A program made the position numbers and the translations under genes. Of a DNA stretch of 51,632 bases, positions 1,658-3,362 are shown one piece after another (position 1 is the stretch's first letter; each line of letters begins with the position of its first letter). The DNA comes from Candidatus Poribacteria bacterium. GTDB lineage: Bacteria; Poribacteria; WGA-4E; WGA-3G. The DNA lies in contig JAGWBV010000029.1 of NCBI GenBank assembly GCA_021295715.1, forward strand, positions 532 to 52,163, written 5' to 3'. The notes under the pieces were generated by a model. The model did not search any database, had not been told where the DNA came from, and worked only from the letters and a program-made list of their open reading frames with translations.

Positions 1658-1686
1658 TTGACATGCACCGCACTTTCTGATACAGT
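1658..1686 (+). promoter_or_regulatory. Promoter directly upstream of the peroxiredoxin start
   Basis: TTGACA (1658-1663), a 17-base spacer, then TACAGT (1681-1686). The in-frame ATG at 1693 lies only six bases beyond the -10 box, so transcription would begin at or next to the start codon. The mRNA is therefore predicted to be leaderless or nearly so. Confidence 0.55.
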
Positions 1687-1692
1687 ATGCCC

Positions 1693-2190
1693 ATGCCACG
1701 GAAAAACAAAGTTCTCAACATCGGTGATACCGCGCCACCCTTCACGCTCCCATCACATCAACGCGGAGAAGTATCGCTCGAAACGTATCACGGGACACAC
1801 CACGTCGTCCTAACCTTTTTTCGGGGGACGTGGTGACCGAACAGCCGTCGTCAGTTGACGGCAGTACAAGAAAACGTTGAAGGCTACGCCGCGTACACAG
1901 CCACCCCGCTCGCCATTGCCGGGCAGTGGCCCCGTGAACTTCGAGGCTATGCCGATAAAAACGGCATCACATTCCCGCTACTGGTAGATAAAACAAGGGA
2001 CATCATCAGAAGCTACGGTGTCTACCACTGGCTCAGTTTAGAGGCTTACAACATCGCACGTCCGGCAACATTCATCATTGACAAGACAGGGATTATTAAA
2101 TATATGTACATCGGTTCGCATCAATTCGACCTCGCAAAGCAGTCAGAAATCCTCGAATCCCTGAAAGAGATCGCCGCGTCACAAAAATGA
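1693..2190 (+). CDS. Peroxiredoxin (AhpC/TSA-like) with in-frame TGA at the catalytic position; candidate selenoprotein
   Basis: From ATG 1693 the frame reads a thioredoxin-fold peroxiredoxin of 165 residues: IGDTAPPFTLPS, then LTFFRGTW, then codon 48 = TGA (1834-1836), then PNSRRQLTAVQ and a normal C-terminal half (RPATFIIDKTGIIKYMYIG). In the family the motif is RG(T/S)WCPxC, so TGA falls exactly on the peroxidatic Cys; the second Cys is Ser. A stem-loop begins a few bases after the TGA (1841-1865). Decoding as selenocysteine would give a Sec-containing peroxide reductase with a UxxS motif. Conservation of both flanks without other stops argues against an old pseudogene, but a recent nonsense mutation or sequencing error is possible. 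A conventional caller would wrongly start at TTG 1855. The product would reduce peroxides in the cytoplasm. Confidence 0.65.
1841..1865 (+). promoter_or_regulatory. SECIS-like stem-loop after the TGA
   Basis: GCCGTC (1844-1849) pairs perfectly with GACGGC (1857-1862). Two more pairs (AC/GT) lie beyond one A-A mismatch. The seven-base loop GTCAGTT starts with GU, as many bacterial SECIS loops do. The loop begins 13 bases after the TGA, slightly closer than usual for bacterial elements, so support is moderate. Confidence 0.45.
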
Positions 2191-2258: not shown

Positions 2259-3362
2259 ATGGACGAAACACACATAGCCTTTATGCGACGTGCCCTGGAT
2301 TTAGCACGACAAGCAATAGGACGCACGAGTCCCAACCCTCTCGTTGGCACGGTCATTGTAAAAGACGGAAAGATTATCGGTGAAGGGTATCACCAGAAAG
2401 CAGGAGCCCCACACGCCGAAGTCCATGCGCTTAACGCTGCTGGTGAGGATGCCAAAGGCGCGACGCTTTACACAAATCTTGAGCCGTGTTGCCACTGGGG
2501 ACGGACACCGCCCTGTACAGAAGCACTGATTCACGCAGGCATCGCGCACGTCTACATCGCAGAGGTCGATCCGAACCCGAATGTTGCTGGCAAGGGGGTT
2601 CAGCAACTCCAAGATGCCGGTATAAGCGTCCACGTAGGTGTTTGCGAACAGGAAGCGTCAGACCTAAACGAGGCGCATCGGAAATACATTCAAACCGGTA
2701 GACCCTTTGTAATCCTCAAAATCGCTATGAGCCTCGACGGGAAAATCGCCACCCCTTCTGGGGAATCGCAATGGATTACGTCCGAGGCATCACGGCAACG
2801 AGGACATGAGGTACGGGACGCAGTAGATGCGATCCTCGTCGGTAGAGGTACAGTCGCAAGCGATAATCCCGCGCTGACGACACGACTTCAGGACAGAGAA
2901 GGGCGGGACGCAATCCGGATTGTATTGGATTCTCTCGGGAGAACACGCACGGATGCACGGATTTTCAATCCCGAAAGCGAGGCAGATGTTATCGTGGTAG
3001 TAACGCCAAAGGCACCCTCTGAAAATGTTGATGCCCTCGAAAAGGCAGGCGCGGAAGTGATAACCGTTCCAGCAGCGCACGGAAACAGCGTCTGTTTCAA
3101 GCGTTTGATGGAAGTATTGGGGAAACGTGAAATAACAAGCGTCCTCATAGAAGGTGGCGGCGAAATTAATGCCTCGGCACTCGCCGCAGGGGTCGTGGAC
3201 AAAGTTATGTGTTTCATCGCACCGAAACTCATCGGCGGACAGAATGCCCCTGGACCGATCGGGGGTGTAGGAATCCGCAGTTTAACCGATGCAACGAACC
3301 TACAGCGAGTAAGCATCACACCGATTGCTGAACACAACTTTCTAATTGAGGGGTATCTATAG
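2259..3362 (+). CDS. ribD: Bifunctional riboflavin deaminase/reductase RibD
   Basis: 367 residues, normal for the family. The N-terminal cytidine-deaminase-like domain carries H52-A-E54 and the zinc-binding C77 and C86 in EPCCHWGRTPPC. It deaminates the GTP-derived diaminopyrimidine. The C-terminal half (from about residue 148, starting FVILKIAMSLDGKIA) is the NADPH-dependent reductase, with GRGTVASDNPAL and LIEGGGEINA. It is first in ribD-ribE-ribBA-ribH; its stop overlaps the ribosome binding region of ribE, suggesting coupling. Cytoplasmic. The ATG at 2259 fits the family N-terminus, though its ribosome binding site is weak. Confidence 0.97.
   Translation: MDETHIAFMRRALDLARQAIGRTSPNPLVGTVIVKDGKIIGEGYHQKAGAPHAEVHALNAAGEDAKGATLYTNLEPCCHWGRTPPCTEALIHAGIAHVYIAEVDPNPNVAGKGVQQLQDAGISVHVGVCEQEASDLNEAHRKYIQTGRPFVILKIAMSLDGKIATPSGESQWITSEASRQRGHEVRDAVDAILVGRGTVASDNPALTTRLQDREGRDAIRIVLDSLGRTRTDARIFNPESEADVIVVVTPKAPSENVDALEKAGAEVITVPAAHGNSVCFKRLMEVLGKREITSVLIEGGGEINASALAAGVVDKVMCFIAPKLIGGQNAPGPIGGVGIRSLTDATNLQRVSITPIAEHNFLIEGYL

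Follow-up and report, generated by a model that had tools for sequence, protein, structure and literature searches.

The peroxiredoxin (Prx) fold is a thioredoxin (Trx) fold with an N-terminal extension and a helix-strand insertion. What defines a Prx is the motif Pxxx(T/S)xxCP together with an active-site Arg (PMC5302317). When members of the Trx fold are set in correspondence, Prx present TxxC with Arg replacing the cis-Pro, and the arsenate reductase ArsC presents CxxS (PMC2757866). Among the selenoproteins, UxxC Prx-like proteins and TxxU Prx are the better known types (PMC1088965, PMC2398784). A UxxS 'Peroxiredoxin-like family protein' (AhpC/TSA, cd02970 / earlier PF13911) has already been catalogued in Table 1 of PMC13188914 and in Table 1 of PMC9312934, which trace it to work on the Olavius algarvensis delta-1 symbiont (Zhang & Gladyshev 2007). 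Selenoproteins are mostly sporadic in their distribution (PMC1088965). The published model of the bacterial SECIS (bSECIS) places the hairpin 16-37 nt after the UGA, with a loop of 3-9 nt that has a G within its first two positions, a stem of 4-16 bp and an MFE <= -7.5 (PMC13188914).

Here we analysed a stretch of 51,632 nucleotides (the window) from a Candidatus Poribacteria bacterium, in which a gene with an in-frame TGA had been singled out as a candidate selenocysteine (Sec) peroxiredoxin. Poribacteria are prominent sponge symbionts, and our literature search found no paper treating them together with selenoproteins. By the published description of the catalogued family (MDX2448127.1), the protein joins the known UxxS Prx-like selenoproteins, being likewise a Prx-like protein of thioredoxin fold with one Sec and a UxxS site, and UPNS is invariant in the TGA orthologues. 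The arrangement had been thought uncommon, which is true only in part given that catalogued family. However, the window protein matches PF00578/PF08534 and has no PF13911 match at E<=1, whereas a PF13911 domain is given for the catalogued family in PMC9312934. With the Prx-like thiol:disulfide oxidoreductase selenoproteins (PF00578, UxxC/UxxU), to which two further genes of the same genome on contigs C66 and C111 belong, it shares a site of the FRGxW-U-PxC type, but it carries an invariant Ser for the second Cys. TlpA, ResA and CcmG have in common with it the TW-C/U-xx-C/S motif and a cis-Pro position, and ResA is among the sequence-profile matches; unlike these proteins of the cytochrome maturation type, the window protein has no leader peptide, a Prx-like overall fold and UxxS. 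Lastly, the monoselenol UxxS arrangement is shared with the UxxS form of ArsC, a different family that is absent among the Pfam matches of the window protein.

Reading frame and conservation

The window lies on contig C29 of the source genome (G000), an assembly of 5.1 Mb that is 96% complete and whose close relatives are metagenome-assembled genomes named Candidatus Poribacteria. Translation of the forward strand at 1693-2190 gives MPRKNKVLNIGDTAPPF...HHVVLTFFRGTW-TGA-PNSRRQL...ASQK, in which TGA 1834-1836, within the motif FFRGTW-TGA-PNSRRQL, is the sole internal stop (Table 1). The open reading frame and the RGTW-U-PNS site are those originally predicted, with no further stop until 2188-2190, and so is the Ser at the second position of the CxxC, which gives UxxS. 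Read through, the protein is a strong match to Pfam PF00578 (AhpC-TSA, 6e-28). It contains zero Cys residues and a single predicted Sec, at codon 48. A warning that automatic annotation would cut the gene down also proved sound: mechanical ORF calling moves the start to the TTG at 1855, and the 111-aa remnant aligns with PF00578 only from profile position 45. The gene is a clear example of annotation dropping an active site.

Table 1. Features of the predicted selenoprotein gene and its surroundings (window coordinates).
Feature	Position	Strand	Description	Basis
Predicted selenoprotein CDS	1693..2190	+	165 aa, one Sec, no Cys; AhpC/TSA (Prx-like) fold; terminator TGA 2188-2190	translation, Pfam, orthologues, AF2, Foldseek
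In-frame TGA, codon 48, predicted Sec	1834..1836	+	TGA in 65/66 orthologues, TGT in one; N-terminal Cys position of CxxC	alignments
Truncated ORF, TTG start	1855..2190	+	111 aa; expected output of automatic calling; active site missing	
Putative bSECIS-type hairpin	1844..1862	+	apical AGUU 1853-1856, stem 1847-1852/1857-1862; alternative register 1844-1849/1857-1862	synonymous constraint, pairing counts, energies
Ser51 codon AGC	1843..1845	+	falls on the peroxidatic Cys of true Prx; Ser throughout the Poribacteria family, Cys in homologues from outside Poribacteria	
Pro124 codon	2062..2064	+	Trx-type cis-Pro position; catalytic Arg there in true Prx	alignments
Predicted -35 box TTGACA	1658..1663	+	kept at -35..-30 from start codon across family-f1 orthologues	
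Predicted -10 box TACAGT, 17-nt spacer	1681..1686	+	TA[A/C]A[A/G]T at -12..-7 from ATG; predicted TSS about 1693	
ribD, next gene downstream	2259..3362	+	Pfam RibD_C 1e-51; adjacency kept in most f1 genomes	

We searched 146 genomes for orthologues and extracted and aligned 66 genes, the window gene among them. These are present in families f1, f2 and f4, all of one order of Poribacteria that live in association with sponges. Codon 48 is TGA in 65 of them and TGT in the remaining one (L064 of G038), scattered further stops are absent, and FFRGTW-U/C-PNSRRQL is nearly invariant, with Ser51 fully so. A variable Cys occurs at position 156 in nearly half of the orthologues, so that across the set no Cys is conserved. 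In a pattern search of 387 genomes, FFRGTW-TGA was found in 66 of the 73 genomes of the order and outside it in G131 alone, a distant genome whose motif continues U-KSC. The predicted selenoprotein is fixed across nearly a whole order. Beyond the Poribacteria, the closest homologues are CxxC proteins, for example that of Brevibacillus daliensis (FFRGTWCPNC); the far homologues found carry CxxC or UxxC, and the UxxS of the window type was found only in Poribacteria. The in-frame TGA is kept among the orthologues, and Cys stands at the matching position in the distant homologues.

In comparisons of the window gene with its orthologues, omega 3′ of the TGA is 0.03-0.17, about equal to that of the 5′ part, and by this estimate both purifying selection and the frame extend beyond the TGA. 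We considered whether the TGA could be a sequencing error, the stop of a pseudogene or a reassigned codon (e.g. TGA=Trp), and give these explanations a negligible probability. The identical TGA occurs in 65 genes from independent assemblies, single-contig genomes included, selection continues past it, and the same gene terminates with TGA. Moreover, the TGT of G038 and the Cys of distant homologues imply that the residue is Cys-like. All three explanations were rejected.

A hairpin downstream of the TGA

Codon choice immediately behind the TGA is far from that of the rest of the gene. Counted over the 66 orthologues, which are related sequences so that the counts are not independent, the Ser51 codon is AGY in 66/66 (36% in the remainder of these genes), the Arg52/53 codons are CGY in 98% (39%), the Gln54 codon is CAG in 66/66 (51%) and the Leu55 codon is TTR in 66/66 (26%). 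This choice at codons 51-55 preserves the apical loop AGUU, which occupies positions 20-23 when the T of TGA is taken as 1. Constraint of this kind on synonymous sites is strong evidence of an RNA element and is what a bacterial SECIS should show. Across the same related sequences, the stem is paired in 80% of cells and its alternative register in 79%, compared with 32-40% for slid controls.

By single-sequence folding, the hairpin of the window is unremarkable (z = -1.05). Its MFE fold, at about -12 kcal/mol (-11.9), has a loop of 5-7 nt starting G/U and is a register isomer of the AGUU form; in the AGUU register the window has a spacing of 16, a 6 bp stem, G second in the loop and -8.4 kcal/mol. 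The stem-loop with a GU-starting loop that was first noticed is this MFE form and does follow the TGA, but the conserved element is its register-shifted isomer with the AGUU loop. Over the 66 orthologues the mean MFE of the 36-nt region is -9.3 kcal/mol versus -6.2 kcal/mol in synonymous recodings, and 18/66 hairpins agree with the published bSECIS model by MFE versus 8% of the recodings. Strict single-sequence bSECIS folding discriminates weakly, and the codon constraint is much stronger. A search of Rfam around the window gene returned only sub-threshold snoRNA matches.

The orthologue with TGT at codon 48 (L064) is a natural Sec-to-Cys swap that has retained both the AGUU hairpin and Ser51, in a genome where tRNA-Sec and selA are present. 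The retained hairpin is consistent with a recent change from Sec to Cys. With this natural Cys orthologue for comparison, what Sec contributes and what Ser51 does become open to direct test.

Selenocysteine machinery

Two genes for Sec decoding are found above cut-off in the source genome, selB (349.6 bits) and selD (359.5 bits), the latter on the same contig about 7 kb past the window end. This selD (L027, C29 59245-60168) appears to be a selenoprotein gene itself, with an in-frame TGA at KCAG-U-ASK. Among the 82 genomes searched, tRNA-Sec was found over cut-off in 72 and selA in 68, and the closest relative of the source genome (G010) has both. Of the four machinery genes, selB and selD are thus present in the source genome; its selC is truncated in the assembly and its selA was not found, both being intact in relatives.

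Concerning selA, no true copy was found in the G000 assembly. From its first base on, contig C150 runs collinear with G010, starting at a point 2.7 kb downstream of selA there, and the missing gene is therefore most likely to be found in DNA that was left unassembled. Next to selB, on its downstream side, the tRNA-Sec gene (L010 1501-1606, on C54) is correct to the TTCG of the T-loop and then passes into unrelated sequence, with about 13 bp at the break where G010 has about 199 bp. Its 3′ part was found nowhere in the G000 assembly, and ARAGORN reported no tRNA-Sec in the window nor at the candidate sites of this genome. In other assemblies (G002, G063) tRNA-Sec lies at contig ends, and it is nearly identical across these species; misassembly therefore seems likelier than a recent real loss.

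The truncation inside C54 and the missing selA could also be taken to mean that this strain has lost, or is losing, the ability to decode Sec, so that the TGA is now a stop here and Sec in the relatives. We weighed this reading with care and consider it improbable, faults of the assembly being likelier, given the position of the selA site at the beginning of C150, the case for misassembly of tRNA-Sec, the intact selB, Sec-containing selD and several further TGA-containing genes, and the presence of tRNA-Sec and selA in the closest relative. Taken together, the conservation of the TGA, its Cys variant, the SECIS-type constraint, selB, the Sec-containing SelD and the tRNA-Sec and selA of close relatives make it almost certain that the window gene encodes a selenoprotein with Sec at TGA 1834-1836.

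Position of the predicted Sec in the active site

The AlphaFold (AF2) model of the window protein (pLDDT 92.7) has a Prx fold, its best Foldseek matches being Bcp4 (TM 0.88-0.92) and AhpE (0.83-0.91); against a viral structure library the only matches were distant ones to Prx/GPx. In both profile and single-sequence alignments the active site aligns without gaps with Bcp4, PrxQ and AhpE, FFRGTWUPNS standing over FFPLAFTGIC. Sec48 then falls over the Thr in Pxxx(T/S)xxC and precedes the column of the peroxidatic Cys (CP) by three residues, with Ser51 over CP itself and Arg44 over the Pro. Pro124 falls over the catalytic Arg, R116 of AhpE, a column marked by the R116A entry 4xih. The AhpE-like Prx of the same genome (L005, FYPLAFSPVC) aligns in the same way as AhpE, its Arg over Pro124, and in the genome's TlpA-like proteins (L007/L008; ATWCGPC, IPSTF) it is the first Cys that stands over Sec48 and the cis-Pro over Pro124. 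Pro is found at position 124 in 27 of 28 homologues, and Gln78 is conserved in 24 of the 28, CxxC ones included.

Both the true-Prx motif and the active-site Arg are thus replaced in the window protein, and a TlpA/thioredoxin-type site, TWU with P124, is found in their stead. Judged by these alignments, the active site is thioredoxin/TlpA-like (Trp47-Sec48-Pro-Asn-Ser51 plus Pro124) on a Prx scaffold. The original prediction had placed the TGA exactly on the peroxidatic Cys codon of an otherwise intact peroxiredoxin. Neither part of this survives: Sec48 occupies the N-terminal Cys position of the Trx type, and at the active site Pro, Thr, CP and Arg have all been replaced. Because AhpE, Bcp4 and the genome's AhpE-like Prx all align here without a gap, Sec at the peroxidatic Cys was rejected.

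It follows that a genuine 1-Sec peroxiredoxin, with Sec in the peroxidatic role that it has in PxxxTxxU Prx from other bacteria, is an improbable identity for the window protein. The scaffold is indeed shared with Sec-Prx (TxxU, PF00578) and with AhpE, as the AhpC-TSA match and the top structural matches show, and AhpE is likewise a one-Cys enzyme with a single catalytic chalcogen residue. However, the four defining residues are replaced (R44/Pro, U48/Thr, S51/CP, P124/Arg), and the same genome offers a true PxxxTxxU domain of PrxQ type for contrast (FYPKDFTGGU).

On balance, we lean towards reading the window protein as a Sec protein with a Prx scaffold and a Trx/TlpA-type site that works as a one-selenium reductase recycled by an external thiol. 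In the mechanism we propose, TGA 1834-1836 would be read as Sec under the downstream SECIS hairpin, via SelB, tRNA-Sec, SelA and SelD. The Sec48 selenolate would attack an electrophile, for which a hydroperoxide is the most probable candidate, to give a selenenic acid. Because Ser51 stands for the partner Cys, this selenenic acid would have no intrachain resolution and would be recycled by an external thiol, which may be a low-molecular-weight thiol, thioredoxin or glutaredoxin. With modest confidence we favour a hydroperoxide as the main substrate, given the Prx scaffold and the role that selenoproteins of this sort usually play. Thr and Arg being absent from the aligned site, the activation of peroxide must differ from that in Prx. 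The predicted enzyme would be a natural case of catalysis with Sec alone and no Cys.

A serious rival, which we hold to be less likely, is a thiol/disulfide or oxyanion reductase of monothiol (CxxS-like) type, comparable to monothiol glutaredoxin or to ArsC (UxxS), and not a peroxidase. The Trx/TlpA-type site with its cis-Pro position, the CxxS/UxxS arrangement of ArsC (PMC2757866, PMC2398784) and the CxxC of the closest homologues would all suit such an enzyme. Its fold, however, resembles Prx more than it does ArsC or glutaredoxin, no partner gene is conserved across the whole order, and Gln78 would suit a peroxide site if it lies near Sec. Also doubtful is a one-selenium peroxidase of GPx-like logic (possibly Sec-Gln78-Trp) that arose separately from Prx and GPx, is made from a leaderless mRNA and is found lineage-wide. 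Under that proposal the design would be a Prx-type scaffold with Sec at the Cys-N position of Trx and the peroxidatic position fixed as Ser.

Promoter and gene neighbourhood

Promoter-like boxes precede the gene (Table 1), and nearly every f1 orthologue keeps their spacing to ATG 1693. Because the distances to the ATG are exactly those of a -35 and a -10 box and are conserved in this way, the mRNA is probably leaderless in family f1, with the A of ATG as its predicted start. A leaderless mRNA had been raised as a possibility from the window, and the conserved phasing lends it support. The phased promoter was not seen in f2, f4, the Cys orthologue of G038 or its genus mate G041. A strict-pattern search of about 95 kb of the source genome found no other leaderless-type promoters for ORFs > 60 aa. 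A second promoter-like sequence lies between the window gene and ribD. In family f4, a SelA-like/aminotransferase V gene precedes the orthologue (L213 1741-2955; same place in G064, G066, G068 and G070); its protein (PF03841, 34.6 bits) is not a canonical SelA.

Further selenoprotein candidates

The source genome has additional genes with TGA at active-site Cys positions, on contigs C66, C111 and C62. Those on C66 (L002, FYRGGW-U-PFC) and C111 (L004, FYRTGT-U-GDC) are UxxC Prx-like paralogues, and their TGAs are followed by shared GCAACTCGG.GAGTTGC hairpins, which differ from the AGUU type seen in the window gene. The gene on C62 (11649-12473, minus strand; L003/L006) encodes a single protein of two tandem PrxQ-like domains with two in-frame TGAs, in the motifs FYPKDFTGG-U-TTELC and FYPRDFGRG-U-TAQVC, the second domain being without the Thr. 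Its product is a candidate double-Sec peroxiredoxin.
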